A stretch of 38,999 bases of DNA from assembly GCA_027449865.1 (NCBI GenBank), contig DAIDKV010000090.1:1-38999 (forward strand). Reading direction: 5' to 3'. A model generated the notes under the pieces. That model was not told the origin of the DNA. It did no database searches and saw only the letters and a list, made by a program, of their open reading frames with translations. The position numbers were made by a program, and so were the translations under genes. Of the stretch, positions 10,524-37,818 are shown one piece after another (within the stretch, counting starts at the first letter, position 1; every line of letters begins with the position of its first letter). The stretch is from Planctomycetales bacterium. Its GTDB lineage: Bacteria > Planctomycetota > Planctomycetia > Isosphaerales > Isosphaeraceae.

Positions 10524-10528
10524 GCGGG

Positions 10529-10811
10529 TTTTCAGTTTTCAGTTTTCAGTTTTCAGTTGTGGCCCACGGTAGATGTATAGTGTGGCCGATGTCGAAGGGA
10601 GATAAGGACTCACGACGATCGGCGGCCTGGATACGTCCTGAATGTCGTAAGTGCTGAAATCACATCGAGTTGCTCCCGGCTGATTGATTGCCCTACGCCA
10701 CCGCCCAGTTCAGACTGAAGAATGTTCCCAATCACAGGAAGCTTGTCCCAGGGTAGGCTCGAATGCCCGACGTCGCTGCCCACACGGAAAACGGAAAACT
10801 GAAAACTGAAA
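10529..10811. repeat. TTTTCAG repeat element with inverted arms
   Basis: Four exact tandem copies of the heptamer TTTTCAG (10529-10556) lie right behind the stop codon at 10523. About 230 bp later, 10786-10811 is the near reverse complement, built from GGAAAAC and TGAAAAC words. The enclosed DNA has no convincing gene. Between the arms I see only a lone TATAGT-like word near 10577. The whole looks like a short palindromic element of the kind scattered between planctomycete genes. Confidence 0.6.
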
Positions 10812-28487: not shown

Positions 28488-29695
28488 GCGATCGGAATCG
28501 ATCGAGGGTCGGCCTGATGGTCGGGATCTGCCTGGCCCTGGCGGTGGGATTCTGGCTCCGATCGGGGCCTGGCTTTGGGTCGGCCTCGCATCGAAGGCAG
28601 GCGAGTCTCGCCCGTCGGGCACTGGCGAGGCATTCCGTGGCGACCAGGCCCGCTGCGGTGGCCGAGGCCCGCGCCGCCGCCATCCGCGAGACGATGGCGA
28701 GCCTCCTCGACGAATGCGCGAAGGCTGCCGGCGGCGACTGGGATCGTTGGTCGGCTCAGCTTGCCCCGATGCGCGCCGGGCTCGCCGCGAGGGTCCAGGC
28801 CGCCCAGCCCTTCAACCCGAAGGCCACCGGCTCGTTCGAGGGGCGCTCGATCGTTCTGGCCGGGAGAGGTGATTTTCCCCTCTTCGAGCCAGCGCCCGAT
28901 GTTTATCTGATGCACGTCCTGCGCCCGGCTTCGCTCGATCCGCTTCGTGAGTCGCGGCCCGTGACGGCCGCCGCTCGATGGCTCGAGCGCAAGGGGATCG
29001 ATCTGATCTTCGTCCCGGTTCCGAAGATGACCGAGGCCCATCCCGAGCCTTTTGTCGAGCCCTGCCCGCCCGATCGGATGATCGCTCCTCATATCCGCCG
29101 CGCGCTCTTCGAACTGCTTGAAGACGATGTCGAGGTGGTCGACGTCTTGCCGGCGTTCCTCCGCGAGCGCGATCCCGGGGCCGAGCCGCTGTATCAGCCG
29201 GCCGATCCGCACTGGGCACCCCGAGGCCAGGCGATCGCGGCGCGGATGGTCGCCGATCGACTGGCGCGCTACGACTTCGTCGCCCGCGCGAGGGAGTCAC
29301 CCCGGTTTTGCGAGTGGGCGACCGCGCCGTATTTGAAGGTCGAGGATGGTACCGCCTTCCCCGCGCTGAATCCCGAGCAGCAGCGTCTCGCCCGCGCCGC
29401 GCAACCGAAGACGCAACCCTCCGCGAACCGATGCACCCGGCCGATTCACGACGCGACCTCGCCGGTGGTCTGCATTGGCGACAGCTACAACGCCGGCTTT
29501 ATCGAGCTTCTGGCCCGCGAGATCAACCTTCCCGTTCACAACCTGACTGGCGGCGGGAACACGTCGCACGCCTTCAAGGGGATGGTTCGCGACCCCTCGC
29601 TGCTGGAGCACGCGAGGGTGGTCGTCTGGCTCCTCTGCGATTCGAGCCTGAAGGGGCCCTGGCCGATGCCGCCCTCGGTGAGGAACGGTCAGTGA
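28484..29695 (+). CDS. AlgX/AlgJ-like SGNH-fold O-acetyltransferase, copy 3
   Basis: This 403-residue paralogue of copy 2 has the N-terminal helix VGLMVGICLALAVGFWLR (about 9-26), ADPHW with Asp241 and His243, and CIGDSYNAGF with Ser334. VPKMTEAHPEPFVE and the C-terminal NLTGGGNTSHAFKGM follow copy 2. The ATG at 28484 overlaps the copy 2 stop by four bases and GAGGAG lies about nine bases upstream. The same frame is open far upstream inside copy 2, but that part is a shadow. The gene ends tail to tail with the glycosyltransferase gene, overlapping it by 7 bp. The tandem pair looks like a duplication, with both copies retaining the catalytic residues. Confidence 0.85.
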   Translation: MSDRNRSRVGLMVGICLALAVGFWLRSGPGFGSASHRRQASLARRALARHSVATRPAAVAEARAAAIRETMASLLDECAKAAGGDWDRWSAQLAPMRAGLAARVQAAQPFNPKATGSFEGRSIVLAGRGDFPLFEPAPDVYLMHVLRPASLDPLRESRPVTAAARWLERKGIDLIFVPVPKMTEAHPEPFVEPCPPDRMIAPHIRRALFELLEDDVEVVDVLPAFLRERDPGAEPLYQPADPHWAPRGQAIAARMVADRLARYDFVARARESPRFCEWATAPYLKVEDGTAFPALNPEQQRLARAAQPKTQPSANRCTRPIHDATSPVVCIGDSYNAGFIELLAREINLPVHNLTGGGNTSHAFKGMVRDPSLLEHARVVVWLLCDSSLKGPWPMPPSVRNGQ

Positions 29696-31182
29696 CTCAG
29701 TCCGGCGAAGGCGAGGAGTTCGTCGATCCGAGCGGCGGCGGCCTCGACCGAGTAGCGGGCGCGAACACTCGCGCGACCCTGGCTCGAGAGCCGCTCCCAG
29801 AGATCGCGCGAGTGGTTCAGCTCGATCACGGCATCGGCGAACGCGGCGGGATCGGCGGCGATGAGGGCGTCCTGGCGGTGGACCAGATCCATCCCCTCGG
29901 CCCCGAGAGTGCTGACGACCGTCGGCAGGCCATGCGCCATGCTCAGGTTGACCTTCCCCTTCACGCCCGCTCCGAATCGGAGCGGCGCCACGGCGACCCG
30001 AGACCGCGCCAGGATCGGGTCGAGATCGGGGACGTAGCCGAGCACGCGGACGTTCGGTCCCTCGATGGCGAGGATCGCCTCGGGTGCGTGCGGCCCGACG
30101 ACGCGGAGGATCATCCCAGGCGATCGCTCGAGGATTTTCGGCAGGATCTCGGCGACGAACCAGAGGACCGCGTCGACGTTCGGCGCGTGTCGGAATCCGC
30201 CGATGAAGACCATCCCGTCGCGATCTTCCCATCCGGGCGGATCGATGGGAGGGATGTCGACAATCGTCGGTAAAACGCGGACATCGGCGCCTGGGCAGGC
30301 GTCGAGCAGGACCTGGCGCTCGACCTCGCTGACGACGATCGTGGCATCGCAGCGTCGGACGAGAGCCAGTTCCTGGAGCTTCCGCCGTCGAGCGTCCCAG
30401 ATCCGATCGCGATTTCCGGCCAGCCGAGCGGCCCGCCACTCGCGAAGGTAGTGCAGGTCGACGGTGTCAAAAACCACCCGGGCGTCTGGGGCCCCGGATC
30501 GGATGAGCGGGAGGTAGCGCGCGGCCACACCCGGCCGCGAGAGGATGGCCAGGTCGAGCCCGCCGTGGATCTCACGGAGGTATTGTTGCAGAGACCGGCC
30601 GAGCGCTTCGCCGATCAGCTCGACCCCCATTTGACGCAGGTTGTCGAGGTAGCGAGGAGAGGCCGACGCGATGTCGGGCAGGAAGGTCAGGTGATGGCCG
30701 CGACCCCGAATGGCCCGGAGGATCTCGACCATCCGGAGCGAGCCGGCGTCGAGGTCGGGAGTGGGGACGTCGTGATCGGCGATCAGGATTCGGCCGGCGT
30801 TTGGTGGCGTGATGATCTGGAGTGCGGGAACCGTTATCCGCGCTAACGGGGCGGGTGGATCGGCGACGGCTTGACGCTCTCGCGAGCGGACGAATTTCAG
30901 GGCCGCGGCGAGGGCGGCTCGGCGACGACTCCCGATGGGGGCGAAGCTCCGCGAGGCGCGATCGATCGCGGCACCGATCCGCCAGGCGGGCGAGGCGGCC
31001 TGCTCGGCGTGCGAGGCGGCCAGCGATTCCAGGTGGGCCACCCGCTGGCGGGCGTCGCGCAGGGCGAGGGTCAGGGCGTGGACCCGTCCGGAAAGCACCG
31101 CGACGCGATCGCCGGTCGCGGGCTCGATCGTGGCGGTGATGTGGGGCCTGGGCGATCTCGAGGTTCGATCGCGATCGGACAT
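29689..31182 (-). CDS. GT-B fold glycosyltransferase (GT4-like)
   Basis: This 497-residue protein has an N-terminal helical, probably coiled-coil part (about 25-80, with LSGRVHALTLALRDARQRVAHLESLAASHAEQ) that is typical of glycan-assembly transferases. The GT-B core follows. The N-lobe starts RILIADHDVPTPDLDAGSLRMVEILRAI and includes VVFDTVDLHYLREWRAARL. The C-lobe has MVFIGGFRHAPNVDAVLWFV and the donor site PLRFGAGVKGKVNLSMAHGLPTVVS followed by GAEGM. It would add a sugar from a nucleotide donor to a growing surface glycan; the donor cannot be read. The start MSDRDRTSRS has GGAG nine bases upstream. It follows rfbC by 75 bp on the same strand and probably shares its promoter. Confidence 0.88.
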   Translation of the reverse strand: MSDRDRTSRSPRPHITATIEPATGDRVAVLSGRVHALTLALRDARQRVAHLESLAASHAEQAASPAWRIGAAIDRASRSFAPIGSRRRAALAAALKFVRSRERQAVADPPAPLARITVPALQIITPPNAGRILIADHDVPTPDLDAGSLRMVEILRAIRGRGHHLTFLPDIASASPRYLDNLRQMGVELIGEALGRSLQQYLREIHGGLDLAILSRPGVAARYLPLIRSGAPDARVVFDTVDLHYLREWRAARLAGNRDRIWDARRRKLQELALVRRCDATIVVSEVERQVLLDACPGADVRVLPTIVDIPPIDPPGWEDRDGMVFIGGFRHAPNVDAVLWFVAEILPKILERSPGMILRVVGPHAPEAILAIEGPNVRVLGYVPDLDPILARSRVAVAPLRFGAGVKGKVNLSMAHGLPTVVSTLGAEGMDLVHRQDALIAADPAAFADAVIELNHSRDLWERLSSQGRASVRARYSVEAAAARIDELLAFAGLSH

Positions 31183-31257
31183 CCGCGGGGCTCCGTCCGG
31201 CCATCCTGAATCAGGCGGCCTTGATGCTGGCCGCTTCCACAAAAAAGGGCGGACACC

Positions 31258-33954: not shown

Positions 33955-35988
33955 TCAGGCGGAGGGCGTGGGTTCCGACAGGACGGAGGGATCGGCGATG
34001 ATTCGGATGCCGGGCTCAAGGCCGCTGATGACCTCGACGAAGGTCGGGTCGCTCAGGCCGAGTTCGATGCGTCGCCATTCCCAGGACGGACCCTGGTCGT
34101 TTTTGCCGCGGCCGAGATCAACGGCGACATACGCCTTGCCGCCGACCCATTTGATGGCGTCGATGGGAACGCGGGTGACCTGCTCGCGGCGCTCGACCTG
34201 GATGATCACCTCGGCGCTGAGGCCGGGACGAAGGTCGGAGAAGCCCTCGACGATTTCGACGTTGGCGTAGTAGATCCGAACGTCGGAGCCCATGAGCGGG
34301 ATGGCGATCGGGGTGACCTCGCCGACGATACCCTTGAGCGGGCGGTCGGGGTAGGCGTCGACCAGTACGAGAACGGATTGTCCTTCACGAACGAGCGGGA
34401 ATTTCGACTCGTTGATCCGGGCGCGGACTCGCATCCGCCTTGGGTCGGGGAGATTGAACAGCGGCTGGTTTTCTCGGACCGTGACGCCCTCGTCGATGAC
34501 GTCGGTGACGCGGCCCCAGGCGTTGCTCTGGTTCGCGTAGACGACGATGCCGTCGCCGGGGGCGCGGATGGTGCAGTGTTCGAGGTTTTTCTGGATGCGT
34601 TTGAGTCGCTGGTCCTCGAGCGTGAAGGCGGCCTCCTGGGTGAGCAGGTCGGCCTTGATCGCCTGGACGTTGGCCTCGAGCGACTTGATGATCTTCGGCC
34701 CGGTGTACTTGGTGAGCCGCTCGAGCATACCGTTGGCCTCGCGGAGCGCGATCTCGGTTTGCTGGAGCGAGAGGCGGTCGGCATTGGCCTGGGATCTTGC
34801 CCGGTAGCCAAGTTCCTCCATCTCACCCGACCACTTGGCGTTGGCGGCCGCGCGGTCGCGGGCGACCTGGCACGACTCGATATACTGGCGGATCAGCGAG
34901 AGGTCCTGCGGGTAGATCCCGTCGCGATACTCGCGCAGGGTGATCTCGGCGACCTCGAGCATCGACTGGGCCTGGTCGACATAGGCTTTTGCCTGAAGGT
35001 GCCGGATCTTCTGGGTTCGCTCCTCTTCCTCGTAGGCCGATCGATCGAGCTGGGCGACGATGTCGCCGGCGTGGACCTCGGCTCCCTCGGGCTTGATGGT
35101 GACGATCCGGGTTGAGCCGGGTTTCTCCTCCTCCATCCCGCCGCGACCACCGCCGCGACCACCCCGGCCGCCGCCCTTGCTGCTGCCACCCTTGCCCTGC
35201 GAGCCCGACTTGCCACTGCTCGACTGGCTACTGCTCGATGAGCTTCCCTGCGCGCCCGAGGCGCTGGAGCGGGCGGGTGTGTAGGGCGTGACGGCGTAGC
35301 TGAAGCTGCGCAGAGTCGGCTTCGAGAGGGCTCCGCTGGCACTGGCGTCCGTCGACGAGCTGGATGAAGACGCGGAGGAGCTGGAGGAACCGGAGGAACC
35401 CGACGACGAGCCGGACGACGAGCCCGAGGAGCCGCTCTTCGACGCCGCCGATGAGCCCGACGACGAGGCCGAGCCCGACGTCTTCGACGCTGTCGAGGAC
35501 GAGCCGGAGGTTCCCGACGACTTCGAGGCGGCCGACGATCCGGACTTCGCCGTCGAGCCGCCGGACTTTTTGGTGGAGGACTTGCTCTTGCTGGTGCCGG
35601 AGGTCGAGCCGCCCGAGGTCTGGCCCGAGGCGTTGCCGCCCTGGCCCGACGACGAGCCGGAGCCGGACTTGCCGCTGGTGGCCTGGCTGCCGCCGACCGT
35701 ACCGACGAGCGCCTCGACCTCGCAGCGCATCGTCGTGTTGTTCGAGCTTTCGATGGTCCCGTTCTCGACGACGAAGAGGTCCACATCTCCGCGATCGACC
35801 TCGACGAGCCGATATCGGGGCCGATCGGCGGCGAGGAGCATGGGGGGCCGGTATCCGGCGGACCAGGCCACGCCCGCGGCGGCCACCGCGGCGAGGGCCG
35901 CCACGATCTTCACGGCGGCCCAGGGGCTACGGCCCGGCTTCGGAAGATCGATCGGCGTGAACCCGGCCTTGTCCACTTCTGGAAGCAT
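33955..35988 (-). CDS. HlyD/RND-type membrane fusion protein with a large Ser/Gly-rich insert
   Basis: This is a periplasmic adaptor-type protein of 677 residues. One helix (about 24-46) anchors the N-terminus. The first half of the barrel-sandwich domain ends at about 99 (FVVENGTIESSNNTTMRCEVEALVGTVGG). Then comes about 190 residues (100-289) of almost only Ser, Gly, Ala, Lys and Thr, broken only by KPTLRSFSYAVTPYTPAR (about 223-240). The domain resumes with STRIVTIKPEGAEVHAGDIVAQLD. A coiled-coil hairpin follows (about 317-480), then the second barrel half (CTIRAPGDGIVVYANQ) and the beta-barrel and proximal domains. No ABC or RND partner gene is adjacent. The start at 35988 is chosen because the promoter lies within the upstream open frame. 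Confidence 0.87.
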   Translation of the reverse strand: MLPEVDKAGFTPIDLPKPGRSPWAAVKIVAALAAVAAAGVAWSAGYRPPMLLAADRPRYRLVEVDRGDVDLFVVENGTIESSNNTTMRCEVEALVGTVGGSQATSGKSGSGSSSGQGGNASGQTSGGSTSGTSKSKSSTKKSGGSTAKSGSSAASKSSGTSGSSSTASKTSGSASSSGSSAASKSGSSGSSSGSSSGSSGSSSSSASSSSSSTDASASGALSKPTLRSFSYAVTPYTPARSSASGAQGSSSSSSQSSSGKSGSQGKGGSSKGGGRGGRGGGRGGMEEEKPGSTRIVTIKPEGAEVHAGDIVAQLDRSAYEEEERTQKIRHLQAKAYVDQAQSMLEVAEITLREYRDGIYPQDLSLIRQYIESCQVARDRAAANAKWSGEMEELGYRARSQANADRLSLQQTEIALREANGMLERLTKYTGPKIIKSLEANVQAIKADLLTQEAAFTLEDQRLKRIQKNLEHCTIRAPGDGIVVYANQSNAWGRVTDVIDEGVTVRENQPLFNLPDPRRMRVRARINESKFPLVREGQSVLVLVDAYPDRPLKGIVGEVTPIAIPLMGSDVRIYYANVEIVEGFSDLRPGLSAEVIIQVERREQVTRVPIDAIKWVGGKAYVAVDLGRGKNDQGPSWEWRRIELGLSDPTFVEVISGLEPGIRIIADPSVLSEPTPSA

Positions 35989-37380: not shown

Positions 37381-37818
37381 ATGATGTCGATGGAACGACA
37401 CAGAGGCGTCCTGGCGGCCGGGATGCTGGCGATGGCGATGGGGATGGTGGCGGGTGGTTCGGGCTGCCGGACACCCCGGAGCGAGGTTCCGCCCGGACCG
37501 CGGTACTCGACGACCGGCGACCCGTCGGCGGCCGGGTTCAACTCCGAACCGCGCGGCATGAGCGCCCTGAATCCTTATGGAGCGGCGAATCAGACGCTCA
37601 GCAATTCGGGGATGGCCGGCGGGATTCCGGGGATGCCCTCGCCAGGAATTGGCGGTCCGGTCCCGGGTGCGACCCCGGACGGCATGCCGCCCGCCTCGAC
37701 CGGGATGCCGGGCCTCTCCGGCTCGTCGTACGGCACGCCCGCGCCTGGCGGCTCGTCGCCCGGAATGCCCATGCCCACCGGCGGCTCCTATGGCCCGCCC
37801 GGCACCTCCGGCCGCTAA
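37381..37818 (+). CDS. small Gly/Pro-rich lipoprotein candidate
   Basis: This unrecognised protein has 145 residues. The N-terminus has a basic start and a hydrophobic segment (LAAGMLAMAMGMVAGG), followed by GSGC with Cys29. That resembles a lipobox but has Gly in place of the preferred aliphatic residue, so lipidation is likely and not certain. From about 70 the rest is Gly, Pro, Ser and Met, with PGMPSPG- and GMPGLSG-like words, probably disordered. GAGGAG lies five bases before the first ATG; the second ATG is next to it. The leader is about 200 nt. The function is unknown; a surface-exposed, low-complexity tail is the main feature. Confidence 0.65.
   Translation: MMSMERHRGVLAAGMLAMAMGMVAGGSGCRTPRSEVPPGPRYSTTGDPSAAGFNSEPRGMSALNPYGAANQTLSNSGMAGGIPGMPSPGIGGPVPGATPDGMPPASTGMPGLSGSSYGTPAPGGSSPGMPMPTGGSYGPPGTSGR

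Follow-up and report, generated by a model that had tools for sequence, protein, structure and literature searches.

The adaptor gene in the window, which is the whole stretch of 38,999 nucleotides of planctomycete DNA analysed here, carries a long low-complexity insert in its lipoyl domain, and within this insert lies a peptide of 18 residues (the island) that is present in all 44 genes that are readable through the insert region. The gene is on the minus strand (33958..35988), with its ATG at 35988 and its stop codon at 33955-33957, and encodes a protein of 677 aa, which is best explained as a MacA/HlyD-type periplasmic adaptor anchored in the inner membrane. The Pfam families HlyD_3 (38.2 bits; cut-off 22.2) and HlyD_D23 (35.9; cut-off 30) both match above their cut-offs, NCBIfam RND_mfp scores 81.3, below its own cut-off of 94.9, and the best solved relatives of the family core, from a core-profile search, include E. 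coli MacA (9qgy, E 2.7e-18).

From the N-terminus, a short segment is followed by a probable single membrane helix at residues about 25-45 (35854..35916, minus strand), a hydrophobic stretch that appears as a helix at 23-43 in a structure prediction of very low confidence (two-sequence input, mean pLDDT 38.9, pTM 0.23). The homologue alignment then places a conserved left anchor, RCEVEALVGTVGG, at residues 88-100 (35689..35727, minus strand), which is the first lipoyl strand. The insert covers residues 99-284 (35137..35694, minus strand), the last two Gly of the left anchor being counted in both, and a conserved right anchor, EEEKPGSTRIVTIKPEG, at residues 286-302 (35083..35133, minus strand) is the next lipoyl strand, after which comes the ordinary remainder of an adaptor. 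Within the insert, the left linker (residues 101-222, 35323..35688), the island KPTLRSFSYAVTPYTPAR (residues 223-240, 35269..35322) and the right linker (residues 241-284, 35137..35268), which is Gly/Arg-rich at its end, follow one another on the same strand.

Nature of the insert

A sequence-only reading of the window had described a Ser/Gly/Ala/Lys-rich insert in the lipoyl domain of an adaptor, with a single non-repetitive island, and both features are confirmed. The insert is 186 residues long, 88 % of them S, G, A, T or K (S79, G42, A17, T13 and K13, 164 out of 186). It splits the lipoyl (barrel-sandwich) domain, as had been proposed, interrupting the first half-motif before the hairpin, and alignment with insertless relatives, to which both flanks align, places the split at the turn between the first two strands. 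The bounds first given, residues 100-289, run too far at the end, where they take in MEEEK; most relatives conserve its EK, which leads to the following strand, and the insert ends at residue 284.

Several draft-genome contigs terminate in the insert region, as would suit an assembly or sequencing artefact, but that explanation is refuted by genomes of one to five contigs in which the insert is in open frame (G009, G012, G020, G024, G029, and G037) and by L001, an independent MAG of a sister species (89 % identical overall) that has the same insert and island. Neither an assembly error nor a local expansion explains the insert, since L001 carries it and the island profile matches in 43 of the order's 45 genomes; the insert is absent from homologues outside the order, but within the order its position is conserved. 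DNA repeat expansion was likewise rejected. The six Ser codons are mixed in the insert and the longest single-codon run in the left linker is three, therefore the insert is not a DNA microsatellite; a tandem-repeat finder reports short, mostly imperfect arrays within it, with periods of 12-45 bases. Nor is there a general genomic taste for Ser/Gly stretches within the 21 neighbourhoods compared, where stretches of at least 60 aa with at least 85 % G/S/A/T/K occur in 17 of the 307 ORFs tested, each of them a copy of this adaptor; at this threshold the adaptors of L042, L043, L046, and L056 were unflagged.

Draft contigs often break off in the Gly/Ser linkers (L019, L026, L031, L114, L117, L120, and L139), therefore the adaptor gene is easily truncated or missed in annotations.

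Conservation of the island and drift of the linkers

The island follows the pattern [KR]-P-x-[IL]-R-S-F-[ST]-Y-x-V-x-x-[HY]-x-P-L-[RK]. In the 43 island proteins analysed as one set (the 44th, from G016, was analysed apart), P2, S6, and F7 are identical throughout, as are the classes I/L/V4 and H/Y14, with V/I11 in 42, R5 in 40, and Y9 in 36. Its conservation is close to that of the core, with a mean pair identity of 0.576 against 0.511, and of the 351 windows of 18 columns in the core, 82 equal or exceed the island in conservation.

The surrounding linkers vary greatly. Six of the 43 proteins have no left anchor and were left out of the total-length and left-linker counts, and L138 is outside the insert-length and linker counts. 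In the other 37 proteins, the one in the window included, the insert between the anchors is 99-247 aa long, with a left linker of 60-195 aa; the right linker, measured in all 43, is 21-67 aa. Left linkers range from 3 to 52 % Ser, 10 to 59 % Gly, and 1 to 40 % Ala, and in none of the 37 do Asp and Glu together exceed 4 %. In L034 the linker is shorter and its composition more ordinary, and the island is kept. Between the window and L001, dN and dS are 0.19 and 0.73 in the left linker, 0.06 and 0.45 in the island, where there is one amino-acid change, and 0.045 and 0.37 in the core.

A conserved short peptide within unconserved linkers, which is what is asked of a short linear docking motif, was thus found, and a conserved island with drifting linkers is the pattern that would be given by a functional peptide on tethers. 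The island was also considered as a motif shared among several proteins, and this was dropped, other matches being at chance level only. There is none above chance in the adaptor's own genome or in the order, where the next match has an E of 0.014; elsewhere in the genome of the window, the only other match is at E=1.05.

Distribution and origin

All 45 genomes of the order belong to the family of the window. The island profile, at E<=1e-5, finds 45 places that represent 44 genes, since G001 has two genes and the two places in G022 are overlapping contig ends. The two genomes without a match, G239 and G038, are 77 % and 83 % complete, respectively. Full insert-clade core-profile scores (at least 469 bits) were obtained in 42 of the 45 genomes, G016 and G038 having fragments and G239 paralogues only; the G038 copy starts within the hairpin, at the end of a contig, and the part that should precede it was not located. 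A protein search with the family matched in 41 out of 41 genomes, a count that would include paralogues.

Across the phylum, the island profile matched in two of 392 genomes (G000 and G013), both from the family of the window; no more than 22 candidates were scored in each genome, and this search could therefore have passed over a weak relative. Adaptors outside the order gave 21 matches at E<=1e-60 in 20 of 198 other genomes; none has the island, and in all 21 the insertion point is taken up by a short turn.

A tree of 95 cores puts every one of the 43 insert-bearing rows on a single branch (SH-aLRT 100, length 0.73). The remaining 52 rows comprise 16 MacA-like operon paralogues, 16 other paralogues, and 20 outside relatives; the tree is rooted at its midpoint and its deeper forks are partly open. 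L025, which carries the island, is placed inside the insert clade. By the pattern test, the island is present in none of the 16 MacA-like operon paralogues, and the insert is absent from the copies of these that were read (G000 and G031). The 16 other adaptor paralogues also lack the island. Most of them carry a short extension at the lipoyl turn where the insert lies, G/S/A-rich in one of them, and many are in tandem pairs. As these short extensions are island-free, it is the turn that tolerates growth and the island that is special to the insert clade. Tandem adaptor pairs with short lipoyl-turn extensions were observed for G000:C199 (L125) and in L128-L132, and in L125 and L128 the next gene encodes a DUF4190-like protein (a weak match, below cut-off).

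Hairpin tip

The hairpin tip of an adaptor is its contact point with the outer-membrane channel, and in the insert clade this tip is altered. In the window, the tip region KWSGEMEELGYRARSQ is at residues 385-400 (34789..34836, minus strand) and includes Arg396. The residue before the canonical tip Ser is Arg in 38 of the 43 insert-clade proteins, Val or Ile in all 16 operon paralogues, and Arg in three of the 20 outside-order relatives. The TolC-binding RLS motif at the hairpin tip is published as RxxxLxxxxxxS (PMC3391258). With the register placed by eye against MacA/AcrA sequences, the insert clade departs from this motif, having at its positions W (43 out of 43), M/V/L/A/Q/T, and A/S/T (42 out of 43). 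The operon paralogues are also without the RLS Arg (W in 15 of 16), yet the Ser is kept in 15 of 16.

Three proteins with a changed island Arg5, all on rather long branches, are also without the tip Arg. This co-variation is only suggestive, since three of 55 comparable core columns co-vary with the island Arg5 as the tip Arg does. The tip change and the insert are on the same single branch, therefore their link may be coincidence. About twenty insert-clade-specific residues are spread through the core. On the hairpin, residues 373 (window 34870-34872), 369, 421, and 424 are found only in the insert clade, and such residues include a Cys that 91 % of the 43 clade rows carry and all 52 other rows lack.

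Gene neighbourhood

The adaptor gene is an orphan. Its neighbours encode a right-handed beta-helix protein, a superoxide dismutase, and an RluA-type pseudouridine synthase, and there is no transporter adjoining it, as the sequence-only reading had noted for the window and as also holds almost everywhere among 20 related loci. When the neighbours at these 20 loci were scanned within two ORFs on each side, one transporter was found, an MFS protein in L059; the scan took representatives of the ORFs, and seven of 20 in the two scan sets had no Pfam family. That MFS_3 gene (L059:10840-12264) is on the same strand as, and next but one upstream of, the most divergent orthologue, with a 100-aa ORF between them. 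Recurrent neighbours in the 20 homologous stretches include SOD, an M10-like peptidase, an AXE1/S9-like hydrolase, a ThiE-type enzyme, and others, and N-acetylmuramoyl-L-alanine amidase genes are nearby in some loci (L040 and L053).

Transport genes are present at a greater distance. A MacA-like paralogue is within the same stretch (up to 20 kb) in 14 of the 20 loci, as is an OEP-like gene cluster, and ABC ATPase and MacB/FtsX clusters are present in 13 each; the names of these operon clusters come from Pfam matches to one ATPase, one permease, and a set of six OEP-like proteins, of which five have OEP above cut-off and one has no Pfam family. In the genome of the window, the OEP-adaptor-ABC-FtsX operon is on another contig, and its outer-membrane protein has no Pfam family at E<=0.001.

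Elsewhere in the window, a glycosyltransferase (29692-31242) resembles TIGR03087 of PEP-CTERM/XrtA systems, below the cut-off of that family, and a small ORF (37381-37818), readable in L001 too, has a lipobox-like start, judged by eye, and a Gly/Pro/Met/Ser-rich tail. A perfect heptamer repeat, GTTTTCA, is present in 4.4 copies at 10528-10558.

Possible functions of the insert

The explanation that we favour, although it falls somewhat short of an even chance, is that the island is a docking peptide, carried between two disordered tethers, which would recruit or clamp a putative envelope partner in trans. One turn of the lipoyl domain would have become a disordered loop, roughly 100-250 residues long, with one conserved 18-residue peptide. 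The linkers, which their composition suggests are disordered, would be flexible and nearly acid-free tethers, the exact sequence of which would be hardly important. The island would be the working part, probably forming a beta-strand (P, S, and F are fixed; R, F, Y, and V are spaced two apart) that may dock onto an envelope partner, recruiting or clamping it. The likeliest partners would be other components of an export complex whose genes lie elsewhere, for example the TolC-like protein or the MacB-like permease of the nearby operon. Counting against docking there, the MacA-like paralogue of that operon already looks like the operon's own adaptor. From the topology of lipoyl domains, the opened turn should be on the same side as the hairpin, from where it could reach the channel, and the tethers have the length to reach other parts besides the channel.

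The island could equally bind to the adaptor itself, as a strand or strap that would pack on its own lipoyl or beta-barrel domain or on a neighbouring protomer of a presumed ring, with the linkers merely spanning the distance. The alternating conserved R, F, Y, and V suggest an extended strand, the phylum and order searches found the island with no protein but this adaptor, and the clade-specific residues across the core are consistent with such packing. However, linkers of up to 195 aa exceed the length that this would require, and we consider this explanation rather unlikely.

It is also conceivable, although quite unlikely, that a duplicated efflux adaptor has been turned into a free-standing envelope connector, in which disordered docking arms would capture a channel or transporter by fly-casting, or a brush of arms would gate its own conduit, replacing the tip-to-tip hairpin contact that was altered on the same branch.

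Another very unlikely explanation, which presumes that the adaptor forms a ring like that of MacA, is that its loops reach into the channel at the lipoyl gating ring, where they would serve as a flexible gate or substrate trap. In its favour, the loop emerges from the lipoyl domain, where the gating ring of MacA-type adaptors sits according to a review (PMC8277102).

There is likewise little probability that the insert is a wall or surface arm, an acid-poor Ser/Lys/Gly-rich tether that would bind an envelope polymer or be glycosylated, the island being accessory only. The left linkers are almost without D/E and the amidase genes at the L040 and L053 loci would suit such a role, but Ser varies from 3 to 52 % and the linker of L034 is shorter and more ordinary, yet the island is constant. 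The sequence-only reading had suggested that the insert is perhaps modified; modification of Ser in particular is an unlikely conserved function, the Ser content not being conserved across the 37 proteins, and nothing is directly in favour of the cell-wall bridging that it had also suggested. Of its interpretation, the split lipoyl domain and the lack of an adjacent transporter are supported, as is the conserved position that it had named as a check, and these two functions are not supported. Neutral low-complexity expansion at a permissive turn, for which the short extensions of the other paralogues (one of them G/S/A-rich) could be cited, is extremely unlikely; it is refuted for the island, which is conserved about like the core and is missing from no copy readable there, and is possible for the length of the linkers.

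Periplasmic adaptors are usually seen as rigid modular tubes. If the docking explanation is true, a conserved peptide on a long floppy tether from the lipoyl domain would be another way of recruiting envelope partners, and the island, as an 18-residue bait, would give access to the export machinery of planctomycetes, about which little is known. A low-complexity stretch, easily taken for noise, can conceal a conserved peptide.

Comparison with known systems

The macA gene sits beside an ABC transporter gene, and to our knowledge MacA has no insert at this lipoyl turn. MacA-type adaptors (E. coli MacA, PDB 9qgy, 5nik, and 3fpp) are built in the same sequence, from first lipoyl half through hairpin and second half to barrel; in contrast to MacA, the adaptor gene in the window has no adjoining transporter gene and its product differs at the hairpin tip. 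Within the order, the MacA-like operon paralogue (G000:C60) has the same architecture and a core that is 35 % identical over residues 291-670, but it lacks the island and, in the copies read, the insert, has a Val/Ile tip, and is in a transporter operon. The other adaptor paralogues (G000:C199) have the same fold by profile, with a far shorter extension at the same turn and no island.

Among the matches listed in the open-licence literature, there is no published account of such an adaptor insert. BesA, which has no hairpin, and EmrA, in which the hairpin is long and a loop of the barrel disordered, show that adaptors gain and lose parts modularly, and the available parts of their descriptions make no mention of a lipoyl-turn insert with a conserved peptide (PMC3807786; PMC4158417). 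The adaptor in the window is of a known kind, and what appears to be new is a lineage-wide insert with an unexpectedly conserved peptide.
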